In this document: positions 32,708 to 62,863 of the stretch, in pieces
Layout: the number at the start of each line of letters is the position of its first letter
How positions within the stretch are numbered: the stretch's first letter is position 1
NCBI GenBank assembly: GCA_001799575.1
Contig: MGTT01000010.1
Location: forward strand, 1 to 64,000
DNA: 64,000 bases
Source: Elusimicrobia bacterium GWA2_56_46
Lineage (GTDB): Bacteria > Elusimicrobiota > Elusimicrobia > Elusimicrobiales > UBA9959
Reading direction: 5' to 3'
Position numbers and translations under genes: made by a program
The notes under the pieces: generated by a model
Database searches by the model: none
What the model was told of the DNA's origin: nothing
The model's input: the letters and a program-made list of their open reading frames with translations, nothing else

Positions 32708-32772
32708 CTTTTTTGTCATTCAAATGAACTTGAATATTGAGGAAGGATGGCGGCAGGGTAGAGCTGGAGGGG

Positions 32773-32943: not shown

Positions 32944-32973
32944 TAAGTTGAAATTGACCAGCCTTGCATAAAT

Positions 32974-47989: not shown

Positions 47990-48735
47990 AGAAAGGGTTT
48001 ATGTGTGTATGCATTCTTTTTTTTCCTTTTCCGCTGCGCGCCGGAGGTTTTTCGCTCACGGAACTGGATCTTGGCTCCGGCTGCGGAGTTATGGATTCCT
48101 CCAGGGTCGAAATTCTGCGCGCGTTGGCCGCTTCGACCAGCGTGGATCCGGAGCCGGCCAGAAAAACGGTTAGCCTTTCTTCCCCGGAGCTTTTTGAAGA
48201 GCCTTTTGTGGTTCTCTCTTGTTACGGCGCTCCCCGCGCCCTTGATTATGACGAAATCCGCAGTCTGCGCCTCTACCTCGCTTCCGGCGGTACGATCTTT
48301 GCCAATGACGCTTCGGGCCTGCGCCGGAGCCCGTTCGCGGCCTGGCTGACACGGGCGCTTGAGCTGGCGCTGCCCGAGGCCCCGCTTAAGCCGGCTTCCA
48401 GGGAGCATCCTCTTTTTAAAAGTTTTTTCATGAGCGTGGCGCCGGGGGGCAGATTCGATCTTGAGCGCGAACCTTCCGCCGCCGAATACGGTGGACGCTA
48501 TGCCGTGATATTTTCACGCAATGATCTGCTGGGCGTCTGGCCCAGGGACGCTATGGGGCGGTATCTTTACGAGCCTTCCTCCGGCGGAGAGCGCCGGCGG
48601 CGCGAGGGCGAAAAACTTACTATAAACATACTGATATACGCGCTGACCGGCTCCTATAAACAGGACGCCGTGCATCAGCCGTACATCATGCAGCGCCTCC
48701 GAGAACTTGATGCGGTTCCGGGAGTTAAACGGTGA
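47986..48735 (+). CDS. DUF4159-family secreted protein
   Basis: This 249-residue protein has a signal peptide (FMCVCILFFPFPLRAGG) and a DUF4159 domain with a Rossmann-like order: YDEIRSLRLYLASGGTIFAND, YAVIFSRNDLLGVWPRD and the terminal INILIYALTGSYKQDAVHQP. DUF4159 genes are usual members of MoxR-Bat operons. It overlaps both neighbours by 4 nt. Confidence 0.92.
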   Translation: MKKGFMCVCILFFPFPLRAGGFSLTELDLGSGCGVMDSSRVEILRALAASTSVDPEPARKTVSLSSPELFEEPFVVLSCYGAPRALDYDEIRSLRLYLASGGTIFANDASGLRRSPFAAWLTRALELALPEAPLKPASREHPLFKSFFMSVAPGGRFDLEREPSAAEYGGRYAVIFSRNDLLGVWPRDAMGRYLYEPSSGGERRRREGEKLTINILIYALTGSYKQDAVHQPYIMQRLRELDAVPGVKR

Positions 48736-50930
48736 AAGTATTTATCGGCGCGAACTGGTATTTTGTAGCGGCGGCGGGCCTGCTTATGGCGGCGTTTATC
48801 CGCGCTCTGAAAAGATCTTCCGGGCTCCCCCCCGCGCTGAGGGTCTTAAGATTCTCGGCCGCGGCCCTTGCGGCCCTGCTTTTAACGCGGCCGTACGCGG
48901 TTTTTTACCGCCAGGTTCCGGTGAAGCCGGTCCTGGCTGTTCTGCTGGACGCTTCGCTTTATATGCGGGAGGGCCCGGCCGGAAAGTCTTCCGGAATTTC
49001 CAAGTACGACCAGGCGGCGGCATGGCTTGGTAAATATCGCGCGGAACTGGGCGGCGTCTCCGATCCGGAGTGCTACGCTTTCTCCGACCGGCTTTACAAG
49101 GTGGATTGTTCTTCCCTCGCGGCAGCCGGTTCCGGCAGCGTCTCTTACTCCGATCTGGGCCGCGCCTTGTCGGAACTGGACGGCGGAGACGGCGCGCGCG
49201 ACGGCTCCTGCCCCGACAAAGTATGGGTGTTAAGCGACGGACTTTCCCTTTCCGGAAAAGCGCCGCCGCTGCCCGCGGGCTGCACGAAAAAAACGGATAT
49301 TGTGGCCGTGGGCGAAACCGTTCCTCCGCGCGGGATCTCCGTGACGCGGTTTTCCGGTCCGCCGTTCGCGTTCGCCCATATTCCGTTCTGGCTTTCCGCC
49401 GCGGTAAGGGTTTCGGGTATGAAAGGTTCCCGTTTTGAGCTGCGGCTTAAGGACGGCGCCGGGAATACGCTTGAGACGCGCAAATATGAGGCGGGCGGCC
49501 AGGATGAAACAGTGATCTCTTCTTTCAGCGTCAGCGCCCCTTCGGTGGGGCGGGCCGCTTATGCGGTCTGCGCCGCGCCCGGGCCGGGCGCGGGGTGTTC
49601 CGCGGCCGGGAAATTACAGGTTTCGGTCATCAGGGAAAAGCTTCGCGTTATGTACCTGGCCGGGCGTCCGTCTTTTGAGTACGCTTTTCTGCGGGATCAT
49701 CTGAAAAGTCAAAGCGGCATAGACCTGGTTTCGTTCATCATTTTGCGCAACCCGGAGGACATGCCGGGCGCGGATGAGCGCGAGCTTTCGCTCATACCTT
49801 TTCCGGTCAACGAGATCTTTCTGCGCGATATTTCGCATTTTGACGTTTTTATCCTCCAGGATTTCGATCTGCGCCGTTTCGCGGCGGACGGTAATTATGC
49901 GGCTTCGCTGGCGGAGTTCGTCAGGAAAGGCGGCGGACTGGCGGTTCTCGGAGGCCCGTCCGCGTTCGGGAGCGGGGGCTATCGCGGGATGGATTTCCTC
50001 AACGCCATGCTTCCGGCCGAAGTGGCGGGCGGGCCTGACTACCGTCAGGATCTTGAGTTCCGGGTTTCGCCCGCGTCGCATACCGCCTCCGATCTTTTCC
50101 CCGGGATGGAAAATAAAGAGCGGTTCTGGGCCGGCGCTCCTCCGCTTAAGGGCGTCAATGTTCTGGGCCCGCTGAAATCCGGGGCGAAAGCGGTCTTTTA
50201 CTATAAAGATCCGGCCGCCGGACGGGACGCTCTTTTTTCCGCAGAAAAGAGTTATGGAAAAGGGCGCGTTATGGTTCTCGCCGGGCCGTCCACCTGGCGC
50301 TGGAAGATGCTGGGCGCCGCGGACGCCAGATATGCGGGGCTTTATTCCGCGTTCTGGGGCCGCACGCTGGCCTATCTGGATGGTTCGCTCAGTCTTGAAA
50401 AAGTGGCGCTTGAATCCCTGCCGCGTTCCGGTCAAAGCCGCGCTTTCCGGTTGAAGGTGCTGAACGCCAATTATCTGCCGCCGTCGGACAGCGACGCGGT
50501 TTCGGTGGACGCTTCGCTGGAGGCGGGCGGGAAAGTGGTTCCGGTGGAGTTTTCCGCGGCGGGGCGCGGCATTTATGAGGCGGCGTTCGCGCCGGCCGAG
50601 TCCGGGCGCAACCGGCTGAGGGTTTCGGTGAAAAGCGGCAGGGAGTATCTGGGTTCGGCGGAGGCGGTGTTCGAGGCGGAGGAGTCTCCGGTTTTCACGC
50701 CGTCCGACGAGGAGGTTTTAAAGAAGACGGCGGCGGGGCTTGGCGGGGGTTATTACCGGCTGGATCCGAAAAAGGGGCCGGAGGAGCTGCTGAAGTCTTT
50801 GCCGCCGGAACGGGAAGGGCGGCGGGAGGCGTCGCGGTTCGACCCGGACGGGTCTTTGGCGGTGATGCTGCTGGCGGCGGCGCTGTTCTTCGCCAGCTGG
50901 ATCCTGGGCCGCCTGAAAGGGCTGCAATAA
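48732..50930 (+). CDS. Large membrane protein with glutamine-amidotransferase-like fold
   Basis: This 732-residue protein has two N-terminal membrane segments, a VWA-like first part (LAVLLDASLYMREG, VWVLSDGLSL), a central region like the class I GATase fold seen in this operon type (FEYAFLRDHLKSQSGIDLV, GGGLAVLGGPSAFGSGGYRG), an Ig-like region and a C-terminal membrane segment (VMLLAAALFFASWIL). The nucleophile Cys of true amidotransferases is not seen, so it is probably structural. It is the last gene of the operon. Confidence 0.88.
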   Translation: MKVFIGANWYFVAAAGLLMAAFIRALKRSSGLPPALRVLRFSAAALAALLLTRPYAVFYRQVPVKPVLAVLLDASLYMREGPAGKSSGISKYDQAAAWLGKYRAELGGVSDPECYAFSDRLYKVDCSSLAAAGSGSVSYSDLGRALSELDGGDGARDGSCPDKVWVLSDGLSLSGKAPPLPAGCTKKTDIVAVGETVPPRGISVTRFSGPPFAFAHIPFWLSAAVRVSGMKGSRFELRLKDGAGNTLETRKYEAGGQDETVISSFSVSAPSVGRAAYAVCAAPGPGAGCSAAGKLQVSVIREKLRVMYLAGRPSFEYAFLRDHLKSQSGIDLVSFIILRNPEDMPGADERELSLIPFPVNEIFLRDISHFDVFILQDFDLRRFAADGNYAASLAEFVRKGGGLAVLGGPSAFGSGGYRGMDFLNAMLPAEVAGGPDYRQDLEFRVSPASHTASDLFPGMENKERFWAGAPPLKGVNVLGPLKSGAKAVFYYKDPAAGRDALFSAEKSYGKGRVMVLAGPSTWRWKMLGAADARYAGLYSAFWGRTLAYLDGSLSLEKVALESLPRSGQSRAFRLKVLNANYLPPSDSDAVSVDASLEAGGKVVPVEFSAAGRGIYEAAFAPAESGRNRLRVSVKSGREYLGSAEAVFEAEESPVFTPSDEEVLKKTAAGLGGGYYRLDPKKGPEELLKSLPPEREGRREASRFDPDGSLAVMLLAAALFFASWILGRLKGLQ

Positions 50931-51054
50931 GGTGACGCCGGCTGGTTGGCTTTGGGCTCTGGCTCCGCAGGATAGCAAAGGCGGGGCCTGCCGACGGGCA
51001 ACCTTTTTGCTCCCCTCGGAAACCTGCGGGACAAAAAGGTTGCCCATCGTCACC
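50931..51054. repeat. Structured dispersed repeat, copy 1 (reverse orientation)
   Basis: The inner inverted repeat GGGCAACCTTTTTG (50996-51009) and CAAAAAGGTTGCCC (51032-51045) is perfect over 14 bp; outer GGTGAC/GTCACC pairs close the element. In reverse orientation the loop has CCCGCAGG and the distal tail has GCTATCCTGCGGAG, which are complementary, as in copy 2. It begins right after the stop codon of the previous operon. Confidence 0.78.
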
Positions 51055-51113
51055 CGCCGTAAAACTTACTCACTTGATGCTCGCGCGGCTTATCAATTCT
51101 CCGGCGCATCCTC

Positions 51114-51179
51114 ATCTAAAAATATGATATCTTGATCCCGCCCATATTACGATACGTCCGAATTCCCCGCCCACCAGAA
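51114..51179. repeat. 66-bp dispersed repeat (ATATCTTGATCCCGCCC type), copy 1
   Basis: This copy matches 53074-53139 with 5 mismatches in 66 bp. Shared parts are ATCTAAAAATA, ATATCTTGATCCCGCCC and GATACGTCCGAATTCCCCGC followed by CCACCAGAA. It lies between the MoxR operon and the LRV-type gene. The rest of 51055-51287 shows no gene. Confidence 0.85.
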
Positions 51180-51287
51180 AGACATAGACTATATAGCCAC
51201 AAGAAAGCCTGCGGGGATTTAGAGCGAATCCCTAAAAATTGTTCAGAACTATATTTAGAAACGGTCCCCCGTCAGTTTAAATGGATT

Positions 51288-52115
51288 CTAAAAATGGCGC
51301 TTTTTTAGTTGTAACTCCGCAAAATCGCGTACCCGTTGATCACTGTCCTGCGCCAGTTGCTCTAAAAGCGTATGTGTAGTACCGGGATGAAACGCAACAG
51401 AACGACGGACAGCCCAGGCATTATCGTGTGCAAGCAAGGGCAGCAGGTCTACAGGCGTGTTGTGATGGGCCGCGACACCCGCCCGCGTGTATTCGTTCTT
51501 ACTTAATGCTCGTTTGCGTAGTAGTTCAGGCGGGGCTTTTGGGTTTTCTACAATCCCCCAGTCAATGAGATACGAGTCTATGTCTCCAAAGGCACGCAAG
51601 ATATGTTCAGGCGTCTTGGGATTGGATAAAACGTTCATGATCACGTATTCATCCTTGCTCTGCGCGAGTCGTTCTAACGTAGCTTGGGAGACATTGGGAT
51701 GCAACGCCACCAACCGCATCACAGCAAGTCCTTTGGAGTTCTTGCCCATTGCAGTTACTGTGCCAAAAAACTTTTGATGGAGTCGGGGATCGTTTTTGCG
51801 TGAGATACGATCTAGAATCTCGGCCGTGGCCAAAGGAGATTGTGCGATGGCAGCGAGCACATACAGGTCATCGCTCCACTTCTGATCATCCAGCAACCCG
51901 TTCAGCCCATTGGCATCAAGATTCGAAACTCGGGTTACCTGCGCCTCACTCCGCACACTACTATCCTCGCAATGAAGGGCGGACAAGAGATATATGAGTA
52001 AAATAAAACTGAGAGTGATTGTCCCCCACACTTGCACTGCACGCAATAACCCGTCGGTAGTTTTATGAGCATCTAGTATTTTTTCCATAAATGACTTAAA
52101 CCTTCCGTAGAACAT
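51288..52115 (-). CDS. Membrane-anchored LRV/HEAT-type repeat protein
   Basis: This 275-residue protein has one membrane segment at about 32-48 (TITLSFILLIYLLSAL) followed by a solenoid of repeats of about 24-30 residues (LVALHPNVSQATLERLAQSKDEYV, SNPKTPEHILRAFG, HHNTPVDLLPLLAHDNAWAVRR, FHPGTTHTLLEQLAQDSD). These resemble leucine-rich-repeat-variant (LRV) or HEAT units that mediate protein contacts. The base composition looks less GC-rich than the neighbouring operon. It starts directly after the TAA of the FG-GAP-like gene (TAAATG), so the two are co-translated. Confidence 0.82.
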   Translation of the reverse strand: MFYGRFKSFMEKILDAHKTTDGLLRAVQVWGTITLSFILLIYLLSALHCEDSSVRSEAQVTRVSNLDANGLNGLLDDQKWSDDLYVLAAIAQSPLATAEILDRISRKNDPRLHQKFFGTVTAMGKNSKGLAVMRLVALHPNVSQATLERLAQSKDEYVIMNVLSNPKTPEHILRAFGDIDSYLIDWGIVENPKAPPELLRKRALSKNEYTRAGVAAHHNTPVDLLPLLAHDNAWAVRRSVAFHPGTTHTLLEQLAQDSDQRVRDFAELQLKKRHF

Positions 52116-52658
52116 TTAATCACTTATCCATATCCTCTTAAAGCGGGTGGTGGCCGCATCCCAAATAAAGAAGGAATTTGCACTTTCCGGCTTAAAATAA
52201 TCAATAGCTGCCCCTTTGACTTTCACAACCGATGGTTCATCTTTTTCGCACTTCCAATATCCCTTAGCGCATGCTGTTTTGTATTTGCCAGGCTTTACGA
52301 TGTTAATGCCCATGCTTAAATTAACCTTTGGATATTTTTTGCCCCAGTCGATAGAATCGAGCACTATCCAGCGAAACGCCTCTTTTCTATCCGACAATCT
52401 CACGAGTAATCCTTCACCACTAAACTTAGTGCTTTTCAAAAGTAAAGCCTGGTCCATACGACCATCTCCGTTGAAGTCAGCAACAACTTCCGCGTATTTT
52501 GTAGGCGAATCTTTCCTGATGGCCTCATCAGACAATTCCTCAGTAGTTGGATAACGCCAACCATCAGGCAAAGCAACATCGCTAGCCGCGCCAGGTTGCG
52601 CAATCAGTAAAAATAAAACAAGTGGAAGAACTAACCTATACGTTATATTTATTATCAT
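52116..52658 (-). CDS. Secreted FG-GAP-like protein
   Basis: This 180-residue protein has a signal peptide (YRLVLPLVLFLLIAQPGAAS) and a domain with VVADFNGDGRMDQALLLKS, which matches the calcium-binding DxNxDGxxD loop of FG-GAP/VCBS repeats. A C-terminal FFIWDAATTRFKRIWI follows. The rest is unknown. I chose the ATG at 52658 because the signal peptide starts there; the longer ORF adds 32 polar residues. It forms an apparent two-gene unit with the LRV-type protein. Confidence 0.75.
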   Translation of the reverse strand: MIINITYRLVLPLVLFLLIAQPGAASDVALPDGWRYPTTEELSDEAIRKDSPTKYAEVVADFNGDGRMDQALLLKSTKFSGEGLLVRLSDRKEAFRWIVLDSIDWGKKYPKVNLSMGINIVKPGKYKTACAKGYWKCEKDEPSVVKVKGAAIDYFKPESANSFFIWDAATTRFKRIWISD

Positions 52659-52790
52659 TGTCACATCTGCCCCATTTTGTTTTTCAGCAACCTCATTAGG
52701 CTCCGGTGCCAGGTTACTTTTGGCCCCCGCCCAATTCCTTTTCCAGTTCCGCAATAGTGGGGAGGCTGGGTTAAGAGGGGATTAAGAGGA

Positions 52791-52963
52791 GACGTTGTTG
52801 ACTTGTTGACTAACTATTTCCCTTGAGCGCATAATAGCCTCCGTTCTTTTTCAACGAGTCTTGATATCCCGCTCCGCGTCAGCCCCAATTGCCCGCATAA
52901 CGCTGCGCCGTCAAGCTCCTGCTTTCCCTTTGCCTAAAAGTTAGTCAACAAGTCAACAACGTC
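52791..52963. mobile_element. Short element with 24-bp perfect inverted repeats
   Basis: GACGTTGTTGACTTGTTGAC (extending to TAAC; 52791-52814) recurs inverted at 52940-52963. The 125-bp interior contains a 39-codon fragment with a helix-turn-helix. AAAAAGTCTGACCCCG follows closely on the right; similar motifs often flank REP-associated (RAYT) transposases. It may be the decayed end of such an element. Confidence 0.6.
52814..52933 (-). pseudogene. C-terminal HTH fragment, possibly of a RAYT-type transposase
   Basis: An open stretch of 39 codons plus stop, too short for the ORF track, encodes KQELDGAALCGQLGLTRSGI and SRLVEKERRL. This is a typical helix-turn-helix and resembles the C-terminal tail of REP-associated Y1 transposases. 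The stop codon lies partly in the inverted repeat. There is no start codon and the rest of the gene is missing. Confidence 0.5.
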
Positions 52964-53073
52964 CCCCGTTTCCGGGTCGAAAAAGTCTGACCCCGTCACC
53001 CCTCCATCTAGTCGGTGCCGACCCTCCAACCTTGTTTTGCGTACTTAATTTTCCACTAATACCGGCATTTCAA

Positions 53074-53139
53074 ATCTAAAAATAGAATATCTTGATCCCG
53101 CCCGGATTATGATACGTCCGAATTCCCCGCCCACCAGAA
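53074..53139. repeat. 66-bp dispersed repeat (ATATCTTGATCCCGCCC type), copy 2
   Basis: Direct-repeat partner of 51114-51179. GTCACCCCTCC and GCCGACCCTCC precede it, as they do near copy 3. A tRNA T-loop-like GGTTCGAATCC follows at 53146-53156. I see no gene in the remaining gap to 53323. Confidence 0.85.
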
Positions 53140-53323
53140 CACATAGGTTCGAATCCAGTTGACCGCGCTTCCACTTTCGTAAAGTTAACCCCTGTCGTAT
53201 TTTACCTATTTTCCAATGAGAAATGGGTAAATCTGCGGGGGTTTTTCTATGTCTTTTTGCACTTTTCAATCAAGGGGATTCGAACTTTTTAGTCCTATTT
53301 GGGGGTTGGTTAGGCCATACGGG

Positions 53324-54952
53324 TTATTTATCCATATGATCCAGCATTATGCGGAGATAATTTTCCTGTGGAAAAAGGAAAAAATCCGGTATAGGAGGAT
53401 TGCCTTCCAGAGCCTCACCGTCCGGCTTGTAGCCTATACCGGTTGGAAGCCGCACACTGAATTTATCACCGTTTTTTAGCACGAACTCCTCTTCCATGCC
53501 GGAAGGCATTGTTCCGCCGCGCGACGGCAGTCCGAAAACTCTGCCCATGTCATTGTATTTAAAGATGCTTACAAACTGGTCGCAGGAGCTTACACATAAC
53601 GGCCCTGATAGAACGGCTACGTCGAACTTTTTTATTTGTATGTCCGGCTGTTTTTCAGCATTCATCATATCTGCAAGGGTACATTTATGCGGACAATCAT
53701 ATGAATATTGGTAGCGGAAAGATTCTTTAGCGTTCTTATTATTTTCCATATCCTTCGCGAGAAATTCTTTTACAGGGCCTAAATTTTCCGTAGCTTTATC
53801 AAAAATATTCACATCCCCGCGCATGCGGGGCGTATAAACAAAACTGCGTGTAGCCATTCGAAACGGTTTTCTCGCGATAAACTTAAGCAATTCTTCCGGC
53901 AATCCGCCGCCTGTATTTTCTCGCACATCAATCAGCAACCTGCGCCATTTCTGTCGTGCCAGGTATTTGCGCAGTTCCGCCGCATCTATTTGTGAAAGCT
54001 GGTGTTCAGCCGGATAATTAGAGTGAGTGTCTAACACCTGCGGCTTATAGGAAAGGAACGCCGTCCTATTCCAAAGGCGCATCACGGGAAAATAGTAATA
54101 AAAAGAAAAATACCGCAATAAGATCGTCTTACTGACCGGGTCCTTGTAAACGCAATAATTTAATCCGGCAAAATCAAATTTAAATTCCTTGTAATCGCCG
54201 TCATTTTCCATATTTATGCCGCATGGCGATGATTGTTCGACGTCGGGCTTCGGCCGTTTTCTCCATTCAAGCGAAACCTGGACCGTTGTTTGCGCCTCTA
54301 AGTCATAAAATGACATCTCAACCGGCTTGGTAGAGGGCAACGGCACATCTTCGGCATCGCGGCGTGTAAGCCATTTCACTGTTTCAAATTTAAGCAGTTC
54401 GGGCGAATTACTATCGTGCCATTGCAGATATTCGTATTGCAGCGCAGGTAAATCTTTGTCGTTATACTTAATAAGTTCAAATCCCCGTTTTACCTGTGGG
54501 ATTTTGCTCTGTATCACCACTGCGCGCGGGTTATGAATAGCCGAGCCTGCCAGCGCGAGCTTAAATGGGAGTGATAAACTATCATCCTGCGGCTTAAGCT
54601 TATCCGGGACGTTAATGGCAGAATGCGTGTTATGCATGGAGTTTTTGAGAGCAACTAAAGCATAATAAACATCTTCTTTTGTCCGCGCGGATACAAAAAG
54701 CTTTTTAGCGCGTTCCAGTTCGCTGTCCCATGTTGTATCCAGCCTTTTAAAACCTTTTTGAGAAATTATTCCGTTATCGCGGATAACCTGAGCATACGAG
54801 TCGAAGAGTGCGGCCCTGGCATCTGCAACACCTAAAAAGATATCGGCTTCGTCCGCCCATAGAACGGAATGGGGTACCGCAATAACACTTAGCATGAGCA
54901 TAATACGGAATGCCGCATTGAATTTTGTTTCGATTGTGTTGCGATTCTTCAT
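53324..54952 (-). CDS. S41-family peptidase-like secreted protein
   Basis: This protein of about 542 residues has a signal peptide (FRIMLMLSVIAVPHSVLWA) and a C-terminal S41/tail-specific protease domain: LLIDVRENTGGGLPEELLKF, then the nucleophile region VAVLSGPLCVSSCDQF. The classic Ser-Lys pair (Lys about 25 residues on, in TFGKG) is not there; instead GLPSRGGTMPSG is present, as in S41B-type members that use another catalytic arrangement. A PDZ domain is not obvious. It lies 7 nt after the Fic gene; the alternative start at 54967 overlaps that gene. It looks less GC-rich than the core genes. Confidence 0.82.
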   Translation of the reverse strand: MKNRNTIETKFNAAFRIMLMLSVIAVPHSVLWADEADIFLGVADARAALFDSYAQVIRDNGIISQKGFKRLDTTWDSELERAKKLFVSARTKEDVYYALVALKNSMHNTHSAINVPDKLKPQDDSLSLPFKLALAGSAIHNPRAVVIQSKIPQVKRGFELIKYNDKDLPALQYEYLQWHDSNSPELLKFETVKWLTRRDAEDVPLPSTKPVEMSFYDLEAQTTVQVSLEWRKRPKPDVEQSSPCGINMENDGDYKEFKFDFAGLNYCVYKDPVSKTILLRYFSFYYYFPVMRLWNRTAFLSYKPQVLDTHSNYPAEHQLSQIDAAELRKYLARQKWRRLLIDVRENTGGGLPEELLKFIARKPFRMATRSFVYTPRMRGDVNIFDKATENLGPVKEFLAKDMENNKNAKESFRYQYSYDCPHKCTLADMMNAEKQPDIQIKKFDVAVLSGPLCVSSCDQFVSIFKYNDMGRVFGLPSRGGTMPSGMEEEFVLKNGDKFSVRLPTGIGYKPDGEALEGNPPIPDFFLFPQENYLRIMLDHMDK

Positions 54953-54959
54953 AGTGAAA

Positions 54960-55961
54960 TCAAACACCGTATTTTCCGGTTTTATAGCCGCCGGAGCGTT
55001 TTACTAGGTCAGCGTCCAGTAAAGGTTTCAAAATAAAATGCGCGCCGGGTTTCGTTACTTTCAGCGTGGACATTATTTCCTGTATGCCGCGGGGGGCTTC
55101 TTTCAGGAGGCCCAGCAGTCGCTCCTGATTCTTGGTTATTGAAATACCTTTGCCGCCTGTAAGCGCGCGGACGGAGTCTATACGCTTCCATGTACGCTCA
55201 AGGGCTTCAAGCACTGTCTCCGCCGAGTATTCCACCCAGCCGGAAATATCTCCCCCCTGCGTCTGAACGTTGTTCAAAGCCCGATAATAGGCCATCCTGT
55301 CTTCAAGAAAAACCTCATCTACCGCGAATATGTGGTTGGCATCAAACTGCTTGCGATAAAGTTCCCAGGTTGCAAGCGCACGGCCTACGCGGCCGTTGCC
55401 GTCGCCAAAAGGGTGGATATACTCAAATTGATAATGCAGGATGGCGGAACTTATCAGCGCGGGCCAATCCTTACCGGTGCCATTAAGCCATTCGCATAAT
55501 TCCTCGGTTAAATACGGGACAGAAGCAGGCGGAGGCGGCGTGTGGTTGCCGACAAAAACCTTATAATCCCGGAAAGCACCCACAGGCCCCCGATCCAGCG
55601 CATTTTTTTTACCTATAATAGCATGGAGCTTCAGAATTTGAGGCACCTTTATGGCCGCAATATCGGAGTTTTTTCCAATAAACCGCAGGATCTCGAAATA
55701 GTTCAGGATTTCCTGCACCGCACGCGGACTGGCCCCCGGCACGGTGCCGCCATCTGCCAGAGTTTTTACTTCATGGAGCGTCAGGGGATTGCCTTCTATG
55801 GCGGTAGAGCCATGCGTCTGCCTGGCCAAGGCCTCACGCTGCATATCGGGCAGCCAGCTAACGCCTATAACGGCTCCTTGTATCTTGGACTTGAGCTCGG
55901 CAGCCTGCTCGATTACCTTGAGAAGGTGCTGGGTTGGGCTGAATTTAGGGTTAAAAGCCAT
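54960..55961 (-). CDS. Fic-family protein with inhibitory motif and winged-helix tail
   Basis: This 333-residue protein has the Fic core motif HPFGDGNGRVGRAL, with the catalytic His and the phosphate-binding loop complete. The N-terminal inhibitory helix carries STAIEGN, matching (S/T)xxxE(G/N), so it is a class II, self-inhibited AMP-transferase. A C-terminal winged helix (about 275-333) is probably DNA-binding and may autoregulate. TATACT lies 6 nt before the ATG with no Shine-Dalgarno. The three ACTTTAC repeats just upstream are candidate operators. Confidence 0.92.
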   Translation of the reverse strand: MAFNPKFSPTQHLLKVIEQAAELKSKIQGAVIGVSWLPDMQREALARQTHGSTAIEGNPLTLHEVKTLADGGTVPGASPRAVQEILNYFEILRFIGKNSDIAAIKVPQILKLHAIIGKKNALDRGPVGAFRDYKVFVGNHTPPPPASVPYLTEELCEWLNGTGKDWPALISSAILHYQFEYIHPFGDGNGRVGRALATWELYRKQFDANHIFAVDEVFLEDRMAYYRALNNVQTQGGDISGWVEYSAETVLEALERTWKRIDSVRALTGGKGISITKNQERLLGLLKEAPRGIQEIMSTLKVTKPGAHFILKPLLDADLVKRSGGYKTGKYGV

Positions 55962-55967
55962 AAACAC

Positions 55968-55973
55968 AGTATA
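55968..55973 (-). promoter_or_regulatory. -10-like box TATACT, 6 nt before ATG (leaderless candidate)
   Basis: TATACT-GTGTTT-ATG on the minus strand precedes the Fic gene; TTACTT lies 17 nt upstream of the box inside the ACTTTAC repeats. Confidence 0.55.
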
Positions 55974-55979
55974 GTAGAT

Positions 55980-56011
55980 AGTAAAGTATAAGTAAAGTAA
56001 TACGTAAAGTC
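55980..56011 (-). promoter_or_regulatory. Three phased ACTTTAC repeats upstream of the Fic gene
   Basis: On the minus strand ACTTTAC occurs three times with a period of 11-12 bp (ACTTTACGTATT, ACTTTACTTAT, ACTTTAC), so all copies face the same side of the helix. They overlap the -35 region. Related ACTTTACTT sites occur near 13949 and 57008. Confidence 0.5.
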
Positions 56012-56067
56012 CCCTATGGGCGGGTAAATGTACGCTGTATCATAACAAAGCCAACCAGCCCGGAGTT

Positions 56068-56451
56068 TTATTTTGTTTTCAGGGCGGCGCGGAGGGAGGT
56101 GAAAAGGCGGAGATAGTCTTTCAGGCGGCCGTAAATATCTTCCGCTAATTTTTCGTTGTAGGTGTGGACGGAAAGATTTCTGTCTTCCAGCATTTTCAGC
56201 CACGAAGGATCGTCGGCGATGAGACCGAGGCTGAAGCCCTGCTCGAAACAATCCCTTGGGGAACGGCAGACTATGCCCTTGCCGCCCAAAAAATCTTTCA
56301 GGCATTTCCAGGCAAGTTCAAATGTAAGTTCAAAACGTTTGATGGCCGAGTCGCGGTTGGCCACGGTGGCGGGGGCGGTCAAGATCTCGGACAGGCGTTC
56401 CAGGGACTGGCCGAAAGAATTCAGTTTCTCACCGTCATAAAAGTTTTGCAT
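56068..56451 (-). CDS. HEPN-type nucleotidyltransferase substrate-binding protein (HI0074-like)
   Basis: This 127-residue all-helical protein has the family features FELTFELAWKCLKDFL, SPRDCFEQGFSLGLI and DRNLSVHTYNEKLAEDIY (the R-N-x3-H-x-Y segment). With the nucleotidyltransferase encoded just before it, it forms a MNT/HEPN two-component module, known in several cases as a toxin-antitoxin system. The genes overlap by 17 nt. A fragment of a second copy is present at 59122-59179. Confidence 0.9.
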   Translation of the reverse strand: MQNFYDGEKLNSFGQSLERLSEILTAPATVANRDSAIKRFELTFELAWKCLKDFLGGKGIVCRSPRDCFEQGFSLGLIADDPSWLKMLEDRNLSVHTYNEKLAEDIYGRLKDYLRLFTSLRAALKTK

Positions 56452-56725
56452 GGCTTAGAACCTCCCGGCGGAATCCGGCGTCGGTTTTGCTTAAATCCAC
56501 TATTTCTATTTTCCTCAGCGTCGGAATAGCATTAACCTCGTCGCGCAAGCGGAGCAGGGTCAGGTCATCCAGCGGTTCGGCGCCAAACAGCCCGATATCT
56601 ATGTCCGAAGCCGGATCCGCCGCGTCCCTGGCCTGTGAACCGAAAAGATAAATTTTAAAATTTCCCTCCGGCAGACGCCGCCGGAGAATGGCGACTGTTT
56701 CCGCGATTATTTCCTGGACGGTCAT
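56435..56725 (-). CDS. Minimal nucleotidyltransferase (MNT, HI0073-like)
   Basis: This 96-residue nucleotidyltransferase has the catalytic motif GSQARDAADPASDIDIGL and a second acidic position in KIEIVDLS. In MNT/HEPN modules the MNT protein can AMPylate and silence its HEPN partner. The ATG has TATAAT 8 nt upstream and no Shine-Dalgarno. Confidence 0.92.
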   Translation of the reverse strand: MTVQEIIAETVAILRRRLPEGNFKIYLFGSQARDAADPASDIDIGLFGAEPLDDLTLLRLRDEVNAIPTLRKIEIVDLSKTDAGFRREVLSHAKLL

Positions 56726-56733
56726 TGCATCTA

Positions 56734-56739
56734 ATTATA
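56734..56739 (-). promoter_or_regulatory. -10-like box TATAAT, 8 nt before ATG (leaderless candidate)
   Basis: TATAAT-TAGATGCA-ATG on the minus strand precedes the MNT gene; no Shine-Dalgarno is present. Confidence 0.55.
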
Positions 56740-56759
56740 ACAAAAAATTCCGGATCAAA

Positions 56760-57052
56760 AGGGCGGGGCGCGGACTTTTCAGCTTTGATGGGCGGGCATG
56801 GTAAAAAAAGGCTGCCCGTCGCCACCCCTCCCAAACTATCGGGGCCGACCCTCCATCCTCACTTTCCCGGGTTATGTTCCTCCGGCTAAATTCCCGGTGT
56901 TTCCTGTTTAAAAATATAATATCTTGATCCCGCCCGGACGACAAAATAACGAGAATTTGGCCATAAAACCGGGATATGTGTTTAATTGGAAGCGGCTTTT
57001 TTGTAATACTTTACTTGTTTAAACGTATTAACTACAGGAACAAGAGAACATA
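56760..57052. repeat. Gap with third copy of the composite repeat
   Basis: TAAAAAAAGGCTGCCCGTCG (about 56804) resembles one arm of the structured repeat. It is followed by GGCCGACCCTCCATCCTC and by AAAAATATAATATCTTGATC (56907-56938 with CCGCCCGGA), a truncated third copy of the 66-bp repeat. ATACTTTACTTG near 57006 may belong to the sigma-factor promoter. No gene is seen. Confidence 0.65.
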
Positions 57053-57553
57053 ATGAGTTTTGAAGAGCTTTACGATAAATACTTTGGTCGGGTTTATAAC
57101 TATATCCTTTACAGGGTCATATCCCCGGATATTGCCGATGACATGGTTTCACTGGTCTTTGAAAAGATCCTGCATAAATACTCAAGCTTCGACCCGGCAA
57201 AAGCCACCATTGCAGAAGCCTGGATATTTGCTATAGCCAGGAATACACTGAATGATTATTTTAGACGCAAAAAAATACTGAACTGGCTTTCCATGTCAGG
57301 TATGGAAGACCACATCGAATCCGGAGAATCACTGGAAACCGACGCTGAAAAGCATGAAGTAACCGCCAAAGTACTCAAAGCGGTTGAACAGCTTTCAAAT
57401 CCGGAACGGGAAATAATAGCCTTGAAGTTCACTATGGATATGACAAACCGCGCCATAGCCGGGGAAATGGGCCTGAGCGAAAGCAATGTGGGCGTAATCT
57501 TATTCAGGGCTATGCGAAAAATTAAAGAGTTGATGGAGCCGGAGATTTTATGA
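57053..57553 (+). CDS. ECF-type RNA polymerase sigma factor
   Basis: This 166-residue sigma factor has region 2 (LYDKYFGRVYNYILYRV, DIADDMVSLVFEKIL, AWIFAIARNTLNDYFRRKK) and region 4 (LSNPEREIIALKFTMDMTN, IAGEMGLSESNVGVILFRA). It would direct polymerase to a small regulon, probably including its own operon. It overlaps the next gene by 4 nt. AGGAA is upstream of the ATG at a slightly long distance. Confidence 0.95.
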   Translation: MSFEELYDKYFGRVYNYILYRVISPDIADDMVSLVFEKILHKYSSFDPAKATIAEAWIFAIARNTLNDYFRRKKILNWLSMSGMEDHIESGESLETDAEKHEVTAKVLKAVEQLSNPEREIIALKFTMDMTNRAIAGEMGLSESNVGVILFRAMRKIKELMEPEIL

Positions 57554-57885
57554 CTGATTTTAAAGAGGAAAATTTTGGCGAACACAATCGCTTGGCCGTT
57601 ATACTGAGGGCAACCGATTTCAGCAGCAAAAGTAAAATAAAAATTTCGCTAAAAAACCGGCTTTTAAGTAAAGCTGCAAATGAGGAAAAGCGGTCTTTCA
57701 CTATATGGGCATGGCTTCTCCCTGCGGCAGCGGTCACCCTGGCCGCGTTGATGCTAACGGTCAATATAAACCATAAGGAAGTTGAACAATCGCCATATTA
57801 TCAGGCGCCTGACGCTGATTATAATATTTACGGTAATTGCGGCAGACAGGGACTTGAGGACTATTTGTCCGCCCCACGCTTCTAA
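57550..57885 (+). CDS. Putative anti-sigma factor (single-pass membrane protein)
   Basis: This 111-residue protein has a cytoplasmic N-terminus of about 48 residues, a membrane segment (IWAWLLPAAAVTLAALML) and a short outer part. It overlaps the sigma-factor gene by 4 nt, the usual place for an anti-sigma factor. There is no zinc-binding HxxxCxxC motif, so it would be of a non-ZAS type. The assignment rests on position and topology rather than on similarity. Confidence 0.65.
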   Translation: MTDFKEENFGEHNRLAVILRATDFSSKSKIKISLKNRLLSKAANEEKRSFTIWAWLLPAAAVTLAALMLTVNINHKEVEQSPYYQAPDADYNIYGNCGRQGLEDYLSAPRF

Positions 57886-57896
57886 AGGAGACAGTT

Positions 57897-59024
57897 ATGA
57901 AAAAGAAAATACTGATATCGGTGGTCATGGCCTGCGCGGCTCTTATTTGCTTTCTAATTTTCGGCAATATCAAAGATGATACATCTATGTCCTTCGTAAA
58001 CGACGAATTGGTAAAAGGGAAATGGCAAACCGTGGATTATGTAAAAAGTCCGGACAACTTTAATCCGGCTGTCCAGAACTGGGACGGCGATCTTTTCCTT
58101 AAAGGCCTGACTTTCCTTGACGACGGAAAGATGTTCGAATCCTGGTGGACCTGGACCAAAGGCTTTGTAATGTGTGGAAATGAAAAAACCGCATCAAAAT
58201 ATATCATTAAAAAGCTTAATGGCGCAGAATATCTGTTTATGGAATGGAAAACCAGGGACTATACTGTTTTTCACAAACCACCGTGGTATTATGTGCTAAA
58301 AAAGGGTTCATACCTGGGTGACGGCGCGGATATAATCCGTGACAATATCGATCTCCCTTTCGTCAATGATCCAGAGGCGCTTGGCAGCTGGAAATCCGTG
58401 GATTTTGTCGAAACCCCTGATAGATTTTCCCCGCGTAAAAAAAACAGGCGCGATGATCTATACTTAAAAGAACTGGTCTTTCTTGCCGCTGGTAAGACTC
58501 TTGACGGCTGGCTGACATGGACCAAAGGTATGCTCATAGCCAAAGGCAACAAGACTGCAAGTAAATATGCGATTAAAGATATTGCCGGCAGTAAATATAT
58601 GTTCCTTGAATGGAAGAGCGGGGATTACACTATAAGGCACCGGAAACCGAATTATTATGTCCTCAAAAAAGTCTCCGATATAAGAACCGATAATATAAAT
58701 CTACCCTTCCAGAACGATCCACAGGTGGTTGGTATCTGGAAAAGTAAGGATTTTGTGGAAAAACCGGAAGATTTCGGCCCAACCACCAGGACCTGGGCCA
58801 GAGACTTATATCTGAAAGAAATGATCTTCCAGGCCGGCGGCAAAGGCGGCAATCCGTGGTGGACTTGGACCAAAGGTGTTGTTATGAACAGCGGCGATAA
58901 GACCGCCAGCGCCTACATCATCAAGGATATAGGCAGCGCGAAATATATGTTCCTTGAGTGGAAAAGCGGCGACTACATCTTCCGGGGGGCCAAGCCGTAT
59001 TACTATGTGCTCAAAAAGCAATAA
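57897..59024 (+). CDS. Secreted or membrane-anchored protein with three tandem domains of about 110 residues
   Basis: The 375 residues have an N-terminal hydrophobic segment (ILISVVMACAALICFLIFG) and three repeats, each running from FVNDP/FQNDP through GxWKSxDFVExPxxF, LYLKEL and WTWTKG to TASKYxIK, YMFLEWKSGDY and YYVLKK. Repeats 2 and 3 are most alike. Similar single units occur in some Bacillus proteins next to regulators; the function is unknown to me. AAAGGAG precedes the ATG. Position after the sigma/anti-sigma pair suggests it is the effector of that regulon. Confidence 0.8.
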   Translation: MKKKILISVVMACAALICFLIFGNIKDDTSMSFVNDELVKGKWQTVDYVKSPDNFNPAVQNWDGDLFLKGLTFLDDGKMFESWWTWTKGFVMCGNEKTASKYIIKKLNGAEYLFMEWKTRDYTVFHKPPWYYVLKKGSYLGDGADIIRDNIDLPFVNDPEALGSWKSVDFVETPDRFSPRKKNRRDDLYLKELVFLAAGKTLDGWLTWTKGMLIAKGNKTASKYAIKDIAGSKYMFLEWKSGDYTIRHRKPNYYVLKKVSDIRTDNINLPFQNDPQVVGIWKSKDFVEKPEDFGPTTRTWARDLYLKEMIFQAGGKGGNPWWTWTKGVVMNSGDKTASAYIIKDIGSAKYMFLEWKSGDYIFRGAKPYYYVLKKQ

Positions 59025-59121
59025 AACCAAGGCGACAACGTATGAATAAGAAAATAGCGGTAATAATTTTGGTGTTAATACCCCCGGTTCTTTAGCCAAA
59101 GCCGACCGGCCCGGCGTTACA

Positions 59122-59179
59122 TTATTTTGTTTTCAGGGTGGCGCGGAGTTCGGTGAAGAGGCGGAGATAGGGCTTCAGG
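59122..59179 (-). pseudogene. Fragment of a second HEPN (HI0074-like) gene
   Basis: The minus strand encodes LKPYLRLFTELRATLKTK followed by TAA, matching the end of the gene at 56068 (LKDYLRLFTSLRAALKTK) with three substitutions; the DNA is also alike (TTATTTTGTTTTCAGGG). The rest of the gene is absent. It shows that a related MNT/HEPN module was once present here or that recombination copied this end. Confidence 0.75.
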
Positions 59180-59185
59180 ATAAAT

Positions 59186-59551
59186 TTATTTGGAGGCTTC
59201 CAGCAGGGTGATGCGGCTTTCGTGGTTCTGCAGCTTGTCATTCTGTTCCATCAGCATCTGCCCGCGTTCCATGTCTTTTCTTCTGTAGTCCCTGGCTTCG
59301 CCCGCGAAACTGTCTATCGCGCCGAGTATCCTGCTGATGTCGTCTTTTGTGGCCATGGTTTCATGGATATCGCGAATGTCGTCCTTGATATGCAATATGT
59401 CAATGGTATTGGTTTTTACTATGTCTTCCAGCCGTTTAATGTCCGACTTTAATTCCGTTTTGAGAGAGCCTATTTCAGAACGCAACCCGGTTTCGGAAAG
59501 TTTTATGTCGTTTTTGGTGGCCGGCTGGTTTTCCCATTTATTATCTGCCAT
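59186..59551 (-). CDS. Small coiled-coil protein
   Basis: This 121-residue, highly charged protein is predicted to be a long coiled coil (GSLKTELKSDIKRLEDIVKT, NTIDILHIKDDIRDIHETMA) ending NHESRITLLEASK. Similar small proteins are common in bacterial accessory regions, but no function can be given. GGGGGAAAG lies upstream of the ATG. There is no membrane segment. Confidence 0.7.
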   Translation of the reverse strand: MADNKWENQPATKNDIKLSETGLRSEIGSLKTELKSDIKRLEDIVKTNTIDILHIKDDIRDIHETMATKDDISRILGAIDSFAGEARDYRRKDMERGQMLMEQNDKLQNHESRITLLEASK

Positions 59552-59656
59552 AATTTCTTTCCCCCACTCTCTTCTTCCATAATTTTACAAGATTTCAGTT
59601 AACCGCGTAAGGGCCGAAAGGCCCATCTGGGATAGAGCGCATACGTGCGCGAGGCG

Positions 59657-60313
59657 TTATCTTTCTGCTATGCCGGTTCCCAGGGCTTTGTGGAGGTTTG
59701 AGAGGAGGCGGTAGCAGGCCGCTATCGCCGCGTCAACGCAGGACAGCGAGAACGGGGTAAGAGTGTCGTCCTCGTTCAGCGGAACATGGTAAAGGCAGCA
59801 GTATTCGGCTACCTCAGCCCTTGCTTTCATAAGCGCCTCGTCTATCACCCGGTCGTTCGGCGCGGCGTTCATTTGTTCGGCCAGGGGTTGGAAGCGCAAT
59901 CTCGCGTATGTTTCCATGATCCGCCGTTCCGCATCGGCGGCTCCGGCCCCGGCTTTGCGCGCCTCGCCGGTCAGCGATACGGGCCTGAGAGCGGAGAGCC
60001 TTTTCTTTATCAGTTCTTTGCTGCCGGTCATGCCCGCGCAGACCATTCTGAAATCCTTGTCGGAGATGAGTTTGTCGAGCGCGTCCTTGAGTTTCGCTAT
60101 TTCTTTTTCTGTGATCTTCCCTTTGCCGAGTTGCACGTCGAAGCTTTCGCAAGTTTCTTTCAGCGTTTCTTTTTGTAAATTATACAGGTGTTCCGCCATG
60201 TTCTGGAGGGAAGTGATAAAGAACTCTTTCTGACTGGCATATGCCGCTGGGATTTCGCCGGTGAACGCCCTCAGGCTGGCAATAAGCATCAGTTGATGTT
60301 CCATCTTCGCCAT
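59657..60313 (-). CDS. Protein of unknown function, mainly helical
   Basis: This 218-residue protein has no recognised family. It is rich in predicted helices (LQNMAEHLYNLQKETLKETC, KITEKEIAKLKDALDKLISD) and has no signal peptide or membrane segment. A cluster of Cys and Tyr (AEYCCLYHVPLN) lies near residue 170. TATAAT is 5 nt before the ATG without a Shine-Dalgarno, which fits the leaderless pattern of other genes here and supports expression. Confidence 0.7.
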   Translation of the reverse strand: MAKMEHQLMLIASLRAFTGEIPAAYASQKEFFITSLQNMAEHLYNLQKETLKETCESFDVQLGKGKITEKEIAKLKDALDKLISDKDFRMVCAGMTGSKELIKKRLSALRPVSLTGEARKAGAGAADAERRIMETYARLRFQPLAEQMNAAPNDRVIDEALMKARAEVAEYCCLYHVPLNEDDTLTPFSLSCVDAAIAACYRLLSNLHKALGTGIAER

Positions 60314-60398: not shown

Positions 60399-60471
60399 AA
60401 AAATACGTGAGCTTTTGGGGTAATAAGGGATAAAGCCGGACGACCATCATGTGCGTAAGCTTAACGCGGGG

Positions 60472-60565
60472 TGCCGGGGTGAGGCCTTTTCGACCCAGCA
60501 GGCCGCCGATGGAACGCGAAAAGGCCTCACCCCGGCAGGACCCCGCTTTACTATCCTGCGGTACA
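60472..60565. repeat. Structured dispersed repeat, copy 3 (21-bp stem)
   Basis: A perfect 21-bp inverted repeat (60472-60492 and 60517-60537, starting TGCCGGGGTGAGGCC) encloses a 24-nt loop with AGCAGGCCGCCGATGG. CAGGACCCCGCTTTACTATC and CTGCGG follow directly. The stem differs from copy 2 by paired changes; the tail TCCTGC can pair with GCAGG in the loop. Confidence 0.82.
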
Positions 60566-60634
60566 ATAACCCAAAGCCCATTAGGCCACGCACCTTTGCC
60601 TGGCGTTACATTATATTTTGCGATTTAAAAAATA

Positions 60635-60646: not shown

Positions 60647-62863
60647 ATGGAGCCGGGAGAGCAGGGCATTAAGAAGTGGCTTTTCGATTCGCCGTTTCCG
60701 GCGGGGGCGCTGCTGTTTGTTTCGGCCTGCCTGGTGTGGCTCTACTGCCTGCCGCCGGGACTGGCGCCTTACCGCGACGCCGGCGAAATGGCCTGCGACG
60801 TCTATACCCTGGGCATAGCCCACCAGCCCGGCTACCCGCTTTATATCCTCTCCGCCAAACTGGCCTCGCTCCTCCTGCCCGGTAATTTCGCCTATAAACT
60901 CAATCTCTTCTCCGCCCTGGCCGGCCTTGCCGCCCTGCTGTCCCTCTATTTCCCCCTCGCCGCCCGCTTCGGCGTGCTGCCCGCTTTCGCCGCCGTTCTG
61001 CTGTTCTCGCTCAATTTCACCATGCAGACGGTTTCCAGCGTTTCCGAGATGTACGCTCTTAATATTCTTCTGGCGGCGGTTTTGCTTTGGCTGGCGCTGT
61101 CGTTCGAGGACGTCTGGAGCCGGCGACGGCTGTGGCTTGGCGCCTACCTGCTGGGCCTTGCCATGACCAATCGTATGGACATCGTTCTGATGGCTCCGGC
61201 CTTGGCTCTTGCCGTCTGGCCCGGATTAAAAACCTCGCCTTTTCCGGCGGCGGTAAAAACCGTCTCCGGGGCCGCGCTATTCTGGCTGGCCGGGTTTTCG
61301 CTGTATCTCTATCTCCCGATCCGCTCCGGGACATTTCCGCTTTTTGACTGGAGCCATCCGGCCGACCTCGGGACTTTTCTTTCGGTCATCACGCGCAAAA
61401 GCTACGGTTCGACTCTGGATCTCATCTCCCGGAATTACGCCGCCGGCGAGCTGTTCTGGCCTAATATGAAACATTACGCCCTTCATCTGGTCCGGAATTT
61501 CAATTTCGCGCTTGGCTTCGCTTTAGCGGGGCTGCTCTCGGAATTCTATCAGAACCGCCGGCGCGCCTTATGGATGCTCGCGTTTTTCATAGTGCCGGGC
61601 CCGGTGTTCCTTTACATGGCCAATATGCCGCCCAATCCTCACGCTCTGGCCATCGTGGAGCCGTATTACCTCCTGCCGGATATAGCGGTGCTGTTCTGGA
61701 TCGCCGCCGGGCTGGCCTATTTTTGGAGGGATGAGGGATTAGGGATGAGGGATGAGGACCGAAAAAATCTCCCCACGTCTTTCTCCTCATCCCTCATCTT
61801 TCATCCCTCATCCTTACGGCCCTGGGCCGTCGCCGCCGCTGCGGCGGCGTGCGTCGTCCTGGCCGCCGCGCGGAACTTGCCGTACTCCAACCGGCGGACG
61901 CTTTTTGCGGCGGAAGACTGGGCGGCGGACGCCATGAAGAGCGTTCCGCCGGGAACTTCCCTTGCGGCCAAGAAAGACGTGCAGCTTTTTACGCTTTGGT
62001 ATCTTCAGACGGTGCGGGGCTTGCGGCCGGATCTGAAGATCGTGGCGCAGGGCCTCAGCGGGTCGCCGTGGTACCGTAACTCCATGGGTCTGAGCCGGCC
62101 GGAACTGAAGCTTTTTAATCTTAACTCCGGCGGAGCGGCTGAATGGGAAAATTTCAGCAAATCCAATCCCGGGGGCTTTTACGCCACCCTTGACGCCGAA
62201 CTGCCGGCCGGGTTGGAAACCGCGCAGCGCGGACTCGTGAATGCGCTTTACGATAAAAGCGGGCCGTACGATCTGTGGCGCTTTTATAATTTCAGATGGC
62301 TGAACGGGAAGTATAATGATTTTTTCGCGAAAGACCTGGGCGCCGCGTATGCGTCGGGCATTGTGGCGCGCGCGGCCTGGCTCAACGGCAGGGGCGGTTT
62401 AACCGGGGAGGAAGCCGGGCGGCTTGAACTTGCGCGCGTAATGGATCCCGATAATCCGGACGCGCCCCTTTATCTTGGCTTTTATTACGCCCGTCTTAAC
62501 GACTGGGTAAAGGCCGGAGGATATTTCCGACGATCCGCGGACGTTTATGAGCGTCTCCTCGGCCTTGCCGGGGAGTATTACGCCCTGCCGGAGGCTAAAA
62601 ACGGCCTGCGCAGGGCCGGAGCCTACGCCTGGCTCAATTACGGCGTGGCGCTGGAGAAGACTGGCGATACGCCGGGTGCCGAGAATTCCTACAGGCGGGC
62701 GCTGGCGGCCGATCCGGGAATGGCCGAGGCTCATTTCAATATGGCGATACTTTATTGGACTAAGGATCCCAACCGGGTCTATGAAGAATTGAAAGCCGCC
62801 CTGCGGCTCGACCCCAACCACCAGCGGGCGCGGTATTATCTGAACAGAACCAAACTACAGTAA
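60647..62863 (+). CDS. DUF2723 membrane protein with C-terminal TPRs
   Basis: This 738-residue protein has about ten membrane segments. The DUF2723 start is APYRDAGEMACDVYTLGIAHQPGYPLYIL, quoted here in parts (PYRDAGEMACDVYTLGIAHQ), which holds the acidic residue and HQPG typical of GT-C-type glycosyltransferases such as TMEM260. The C-terminal 230 residues are soluble with TPR units (GVALEKTGDTPGAENSYRRA, ADPGMAEAHFNMAILY). It may O-glycosylate exported proteins. Codons about 361-389 come from a short-repeat hairpin inserted in frame between two membrane segments. Confidence 0.88.
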   Translation: MEPGEQGIKKWLFDSPFPAGALLFVSACLVWLYCLPPGLAPYRDAGEMACDVYTLGIAHQPGYPLYILSAKLASLLLPGNFAYKLNLFSALAGLAALLSLYFPLAARFGVLPAFAAVLLFSLNFTMQTVSSVSEMYALNILLAAVLLWLALSFEDVWSRRRLWLGAYLLGLAMTNRMDIVLMAPALALAVWPGLKTSPFPAAVKTVSGAALFWLAGFSLYLYLPIRSGTFPLFDWSHPADLGTFLSVITRKSYGSTLDLISRNYAAGELFWPNMKHYALHLVRNFNFALGFALAGLLSEFYQNRRRALWMLAFFIVPGPVFLYMANMPPNPHALAIVEPYYLLPDIAVLFWIAAGLAYFWRDEGLGMRDEDRKNLPTSFSSSLIFHPSSLRPWAVAAAAAACVVLAAARNLPYSNRRTLFAAEDWAADAMKSVPPGTSLAAKKDVQLFTLWYLQTVRGLRPDLKIVAQGLSGSPWYRNSMGLSRPELKLFNLNSGGAAEWENFSKSNPGGFYATLDAELPAGLETAQRGLVNALYDKSGPYDLWRFYNFRWLNGKYNDFFAKDLGAAYASGIVARAAWLNGRGGLTGEEAGRLELARVMDPDNPDAPLYLGFYYARLNDWVKAGGYFRRSADVYERLLGLAGEYYALPEAKNGLRRAGAYAWLNYGVALEKTGDTPGAENSYRRALAADPGMAEAHFNMAILYWTKDPNRVYEELKAALRLDPNHQRARYYLNRTKLQ
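61727..61812. repeat. Short-unit repeat array (GGGATGA type) inserted in frame in a coding region
   Basis: GAGGGATGAGGGATTAGGGA and further GGGATGAG units (61727-61758) recur inverted as CCTCATCCCTCATCTTTCAT and CCCTCATCC (61783-61812). They encode a polar loop (RDEGLGMRDEDRKNL, FSSSLIFHPSSL) that does not resemble the flanking membrane segments. Confidence 0.8.

Follow-up and report, generated by a model that had tools for sequence, protein, structure and literature searches.

The question raised by positions 50.93 to 60.65 kb of the window, by which we mean the whole stretch of 64,000 nucleotides (nt) of contig MGTT01000010.1 from Elusimicrobia bacterium GWA2_56_46 analysed here, is what kind of repeat bounds the accessory genes that lie there and how those genes arrived. 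The host, a member of the Elusimicrobiota, is represented by a 2.66 Mb genome in 30 contigs that is 98.8% complete. We consider it probable that the block consists of nested, non-autonomous and transposon-like gene cassettes, resembling miniature inverted-repeat transposable elements (MITEs) and mobile insertion cassettes (MICs), which were moved in trans and whose ends later recombined with one another. An initial annotation had proposed that cassettes were added one after another in a single orientation; its word cassettes is right, while the ends turn out to be inward-facing inverted pairs and the window to be nested rather than an array of direct repeats.

The repeat was first noticed as a 17-mer, ATATCTTGATCCCGCCC, of which the window holds three exact copies on the plus strand (starting at 51127, 53087 and 56919), far above chance (0.24 matches per shuffle at up to three mismatches, and three matches in 0 of 100 shuffles). 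As had been described, a GTCACCC/GCCACCC-type motif lies about 70–90 nt upstream of the copies, and two of them extend to 66-bp near-copies at 51114–51179 and 53074–53139 (92% identity, 5 mismatches). The composite is longer than was then recognised: GTCACCC is the 3′ foot of a palindrome and the 17-mer belongs to a distal module, and copy 1 is part of a complete end of about 240 bp (50925–51173) with a second, palindromic module at 50981–51056. The three noted copies share an orientation as left ends alone, and minus-strand ends lie at 56046–56067, 59085–59127 and 60423–60593. With a tip model (R2), a palindrome covariance model (R1) and BLAST searches using ends from elsewhere, six ends are found in the window, at 50.93, 52.97, 56.05, 56.81, 59.09 and 60.43 kb and in the order + + − + − −, which reads as a set of balanced brackets, a large outer unit enclosing two small ones, i.e. 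inserts inside one another. Six brackets balance by chance in 5/64 of cases, so the order alone is weak evidence and the comparison of filled with empty sites is the strong evidence.

The outer left end (50925–51173, plus strand) runs from the tip GTGACGCCGGCTGGTTGGCTTTGGG through the palindrome (stem of about 20 bp and conserved loop; R1 E 1.9e-12; inverted repeat I2) to a distal module ending ATATCTTGATCCCGCCC...CCCCGCCC, with copy 1 of the 17-mer at 51127–51143; up to 68 other ends match it by BLAST, and R2 matches 50935–50990. Its partner on the minus strand (60423–60593) has a complete palindrome at 60468–60545 (R1 E 2.2e-18, with an R2 match), is matched by up to 71 other ends and is followed by the tip GGCGTTAC at about 60605. 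Inner unit 1 begins with a truncated plus-strand left end at 52970–53132, found by BLAST, which retains the palindrome's right arm onward and lacks the outer tip, and it closes with the minus-strand right tip CAAAGCCAACCAGCCCGG at 56046–56067, seen by BLAST and in the sequence itself. Inner unit 2 lies between a truncated plus-strand left end at 56805–56935, recognised by BLAST and its copy of the 17-mer, and a minus-strand right tip, ...CCCGGCGTTACATTAT, at 59085–59127 (R2, BLAST and sequence).

What the site looks like when empty can be seen in relatives, for which we compared the genome itself (G000) with two congeners (G001 and G002) and a sister species (G003). In the last, a metagenome-assembled genome that is 68% complete and in 490 contigs, the orthologue of the 732-amino-acid (aa) gene to the left of the block (window 48732–50930) ends at position 319 of a contig, on which that of the 738-aa gene to the right of the block (60647–62863) begins at 349. 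Because these flanking core genes are 29 bp apart there, the 9.7 kb block is absent from G003, and the whole of it is therefore an insertion bounded by inverted ends. The block has a G+C content of 47.3%, with cargo at 44–52%, whereas its two flanks have 59.2% and 58.5%. The G002 contig breaks soon after the stop codon of the 732-aa orthologue, with GTAACGCCGGGCTA directly behind the stop, and the site looks occupied there also. A second locus, on contig C16 of the host genome (contigs of this genome are given as C plus a number, and analysed locus stretches as L plus a number), spans 1570 bp, in which inverted ends enclose one 320-aa gene, whereas G003 has 23 bp there. Both loci bear out the proposal that gene gain is delimited by the repeats. 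At the C16 site, G002 and G001 carry a gene-free element of about 360 and 650 bp, respectively.

At the C20 locus one pair of conserved genes flanks whole-gene cassettes that differ among three species: an M23 peptidase in the host genome, 824 bp without a gene in G002, and an unrelated gene of 509 aa within 2.1 kb in G001. All three inserts have element ends and a common short non-coding core, which sits on different sides of the cargo, and at the C27 locus element sequence likewise lies on both sides of the site in G001. Differing cargo at C20, the displaced core and the gene-free element at C16 in two species would suit an account in which the repeats are old, fixed MITEs serving as intergenic sockets, with genes entering and leaving for the most part through homologous recombination, either between the repeats or between flanking genes, as in the minimal mobile elements of Neisseria, and cargo never transposed as a unit. 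We regard this as possible but rather unlikely, as strict inward pairing and a nested window come more naturally to units than to loose repeats, and as whole filled/empty differences are seen at two loci.

The pairing emerges from the genome-wide survey. A 161-bp query taken from copy 1 matches four other contigs, and an improved query gave 38 matches; the tip and palindrome models together locate 119 ends, 66 in the host genome, 33 in G002 and 20 in G001, and the tip model finds no tips in G003. Among 28 cases of neighbouring ends within 3.5 kb, 21 are '+-', four '--', three '++' and none '-+', and if inward and outward pairs were equally likely a split of 21 to 0 would have a probability below 1e-6. 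These counts include gene-free elements, which are paired by construction, and so are evidence that units are delimited by ends, though not that every unit carries genes.

Statements on cargo across the genome cover selected loci, analysed as targeted stretches. There, inward pairs enclose passenger genes between terminal inverted repeats, one or a few per copy and mostly one to three, including Fic, MNT, HEPN-like and Bro-N proteins (the last PADLOC PDC-S13, 2e-110), an AraC/Cass2 regulator, a rhomboid protein, a clostripain, the M23 peptidase and methyltransferases, together with several proteins without a family match. The idea that copies always flank accessory genes fails, many members of the family being gene-free and 0.06–0.8 kb long. 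A gene with an ADP-ribosyltransferase domain (PF03496, 1e-9) lies between two same-facing ends in L072 (8689–9594; C27).

Accessory cargo that includes a Cass2 protein, complementary variable stems and a conserved loop recall integrons, in which the palindromes would be attC-like sites folded as single strands and the cassettes inserted by an integrase. The likeness extends to structured DNA sites with accessory genes alongside, and it stops at the arrangement: instead of one attC site per cassette in a same-orientation array, we find inverted pairs dispersed over many contigs, and the hairpin is not bounded by a GTTRRRY/RYYYAAC core pair. An integron-like array is hardly credible here.

A complete end, up to about 240 bp long, has the order tip, variable palindrome, distal module. 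The tip reads GTAACGCCGGGCTGGTTGGCTTTGGG..., the outer part reads (ATAAG)GTAACGCCGGGCTGGTTGGCTTTGGGTATAGAGCCGCAGGATAG...CGGGG with the palindrome next, and the palindrome itself has arms of about 20 bp and the conserved loop GCGTTCCNTCGGCGGCCTGCN'GG. On its 3′ side follows CACCCC...CTTACGCACTTGATGGTCGCTCGG...CCCCGGCGCTTCC...ATATCTTGAYCCCGCCC...ACTTGAATTACCCGCCC, the distal module containing ...TTGAYCCCGCCC...CCCGCCC. There are subtypes with different outer modules and with different and larger palindromes, and about ten ends carry an additional hairpin, GGCAAAGGTGCCAGGC...GCCTGGCTCCTTTGCC, adjoining the tip. At G000:C28:98044-98105 a minimal element of about 60 bp consists of just two tips face to face. 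The string CCGCCCACCA, which had been likened to a tRNA 3′ end, is merely the distal part of the end module; no tRNA is predicted at the window repeats, and a tRNA-derived att site was rejected. T-arm-like strings, GGTTCGAATCC and CGTTCGAATCCG, follow the distal module in two units (window 53147–53157, where no tRNA is predicted, and L087 at about 4270).

The palindrome varies in sequence while its arms stay complementary. In the first 20 copies 97% of cells are paired, with 60 two-sided changes and zero G-U pairs; among 58 distinct copies from three species 97.6% of cells are paired, and two-sided changes number 232 against 68 ± 7 in shuffles and 7–29 in sliding controls. The alignment of 58 copies (A3) was fitted to the model and so favours structure, and the safer statement is the ratio of G-U to mismatched cells, 9 to 37. 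Because G-U pairs, expected above other mismatches in a structural RNA, do not stand out, the palindrome is taken as a feature of the DNA, and the covariation points to arms matched at that level. This bears on a further explanation, that the repeats are a structured non-coding RNA or an intergenic transcription terminator unconnected with gene gain. Strong covariation and intergenic position would suit it; Rfam gives no family at gathering level, G-U pairs do not exceed other mismatches in frequency, and both the inverted pairs flanking inserts and the filled/empty sites would be left unexplained. We rejected the RNA reading, which appears extremely unlikely.

The arms could be held complementary either by selection for Watson-Crick pairing in an extruded (cruciform) or single-stranded hairpin, or by mutual, arm-to-arm template correction, and the data favour neither. 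Covariation so nearly free of G-U provides data for studying whether selection or template correction keeps the two arms of a DNA palindrome complementary. A bolder proposal would make the family a genus-specific gene-exchange platform, whose fixed intergenic palindromic sockets exchange individual accessory genes through a dedicated reaction on folded ends, while at the DNA level each arm of a palindrome continuously serves to correct the other. We think this improbable; if true, a MITE-like element would have given rise to a function like that of integrons.

Evidence of movement comes from gene-free copies, which at 0.2–0.8 kb are as a class short, multicopy and non-coding with terminal inverted repeats, as MITEs are. 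A young cargo-free subfamily with tips CCCAAATCCTCCG...CGGAGGATTTGGG has target duplications of 5–8 bp: its flank repeats are GGAGAT, AATTTA, AGTTC, AGCTCCAC, GTGATT and a weak AACA, with one copy lacking a clear repeat. The mean match of flanks is 5.4 against 2.9 for mismatched flanks, and the observed sum was reached by 1 of 5040 permutations, the true pairing. These repeats support the view that the young subfamily transposed.

The duplications also bear on whether the family belongs with REP/REPIN-type elements and owes its movement to a Y1 (RAYT) transposase, an enzyme whose transposition is not known to leave target duplications. A RAYT-type gene (C6:83386-83721) is flanked by palindromes of the form AAAGGTGCC(T/A)GGCACCTTT, and the hairpin beside the tips of about ten ends is related to these; compensatory changes, too, have been reported in REPINs (PMC3116915). 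This accessory AAAGGTGCCAGGC hairpin does flank one Y1 gene; it is absent from most ends, however, and neither the main palindrome loop nor the GGCTTTGGG tip occurs near either of the two Y1 genes, one GTAACGCC string in L070 being all that was seen. Y1/RAYT was therefore rejected as mover of the main element, and we hold the REPIN explanation very unlikely. The Y1 region itself (L069 1168–1910; C6:83053-83795) shows flanking palindromes AAAAGGTGCC(T/A)GGCACCTTTT.

Several observations weigh against transposed cassettes. Two window left ends lack the outer tip, and units often combine ends of two different subtypes, as a fresh transposon would not. Target duplications are demonstrated in the cargo-free young subfamily only; among the gene-bearing GTAACGCC units a single candidate, AAGCAG (G002 C35), was found by eye, with a chance expectation of about 10%. 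Unlike subtypes and the restricted duplications are also points in favour of the old fixed sockets described above. The empty sites come from the fragmentary G003 assembly. No transposase or recombinase family was found among about 30 unit proteins scanned, and no autonomous copy with a transposase was recognised in tip and loop searches of the genus genomes or in a loop-pattern scan of GTDB; the genus genomes are drafts, in which such an absence is weak evidence, and at least one contig (C10) breaks off within an element of this kind, so that the assembly may lack a longer, multicopy version. Finally, the amylase of the C27 unit occurs on other contigs in G002 and G003 with no end found beside it, and enclosure between ends therefore does not prove cargo status.

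Setting these points against the pairing and the filled/empty sites, we still favour trans-mobilised nested cassettes. Accessory genes of foreign composition sit between inward-facing inverted ends placed among housekeeping genes; a transposase encoded elsewhere would most likely act on the tips, and the cargo-free relatives behave as large MITEs. After insertion, cargo is gained or lost at a constant intergenic site, as differing content at orthologous sites shows, and ends of different copies would recombine.

The cargo of the window fits this layout, with some revision of the gene groups first proposed. Outer cargo comprises, on the minus strand, an LRV-repeat protein of 275 aa (51288–52115; Pfam LRV 8.7e-13) and a 212-aa protein (52116–52754; the pair 46.6% G+C), then a HEPN-like NTase_sub_bind protein (56068–56451; Pfam 8.7e-29) and an MNT-type nucleotidyltransferase (56435–56725; Pfam Polbeta 8.7e-14), and finally two small genes for a coiled-coil-like 121-aa and a 218-aa protein (59186–60313). 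Inner unit 1 carries an S41 peptidase (53324–54967, minus; Pfam 1.3e-7) and a Fic protein (54960–55967, minus; Pfam 1.1e-20; PADLOC SoFic, 2.7e-53). The LRV, S41, Fic, HEPN-like and MNT assignments stand, the 212-aa protein labelled FG-GAP has no Pfam match, and S41-Fic-HEPN-MNT is not a single unit, the inward-facing end at 56.05 kb splitting Fic from HEPN. Inner unit 2 encodes, on the plus strand, a sigma-70 family factor (57053–57553), a 111-aa protein (57550–57885) and a 375-aa protein with three internal repeats and a weak DUF4909 match (57897–59024), whose gene contains three 121-nt direct repeats at 58143–58977 that are 62–70% identical.

A 58-bp stretch from the 3′ region of the HEPN-like gene, adjoining the 56.05 kb tip (56068–56125), recurs at 86% identity next to the 59.1 kb tip (59122–59179); this repetition beside two right tips suggests recombination at tips. 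A separate 179-bp inverted-repeat element at 52788–52966, with 31-nt arms that are 94% complementary (GTTAGTCAACAAGTCAACAACGTCCCC), abuts the truncated left end at 52970, and a single arm of it recurs near another unit (C28, L144:3118). Elsewhere in the window a further palindrome copy with a tip-like stretch lies on the minus strand at 32769–32967 (R1, R2). Within the 738-aa gene a GGATGAGGGATTAGGGATGAGG palindrome of about 90 bp sits in frame at 61726–61816, where the alignment with the G003 orthologue breaks. A 1.3 kb tandem duplication of 98.6% identity occupies C15:99045-101466.

Searches of 40 relatives placed strong matches within the same genus only, and 37 genomes outside it gave nothing beyond weak long-loop matches. 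The exact loop pattern, scanned across 84,980 species (GTDB), occurs in three G002 contigs and as six single hits in unrelated bacteria, which look like chance; plasmids, phages and viral contigs yielded no family match. Among the searched genomes the family is thus found in one genus of uncultured Elusimicrobiota only, and a literature search returned no description of such repeats in Elusimicrobiota. That gene cassettes can lack a transposase of their own is known; we found no prior description of this family, of its hairpin-rich ends or of cargo being exchanged at fixed sites. The family shows one route by which an uncultured lineage can acquire single foreign genes, such as Fic, HEPN-MNT, peptidases and methyltransferases, without recognisable transposons, and as its ends can be searched by profile, a direct inventory of mobile genes in the genus is possible.

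Among known systems, the ERIC, REP, REPIN and Correia elements are likewise dispersed intergenic palindromes, but they are not described as routinely enclosing accessory genes, and they are unrelated in sequence and structure. Minimal mobile elements of Neisseria hold different whole-gene cassettes at one site between conserved genes across genomes (PMC3898611), a turnover of cargo like that seen here; a specific repeat family delimits the cassettes described here, and minimal mobile elements do without one. Pairs of MITEs can mobilise the DNA between them, as in TIMEs/TIME-COMP, E622 and the Acinetobacter MITE-integron units (PMC4133298, PMC10969869), and the non-coding, inverted-repeat, cargo-free copies, with target duplications in the young subfamily, resemble these; in a direct comparison, as distinct from a database test, the tips show no resemblance to the 38-bp Tn3-type repeats, and each end here is half of a large palindromic element, not a whole MITE. 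MICs carry passenger genes between terminal inverted repeats, have no transposase of their own and are presumed to be mobilised in trans (PMC3129680, PMC4133298), and the Elusimicrobiota units are similarly ends plus cargo with no transposase inside. They depart from MICs in having ends of about 240 bp that contain a variable palindrome and fall into several subtypes, in being nested, in their many gene-free copies and in their confinement to one genus. Because no cognate insertion sequence or transposase has been recognised for them, we place them by structure and way of working with the MIC and MITE kind rather than in a named family.

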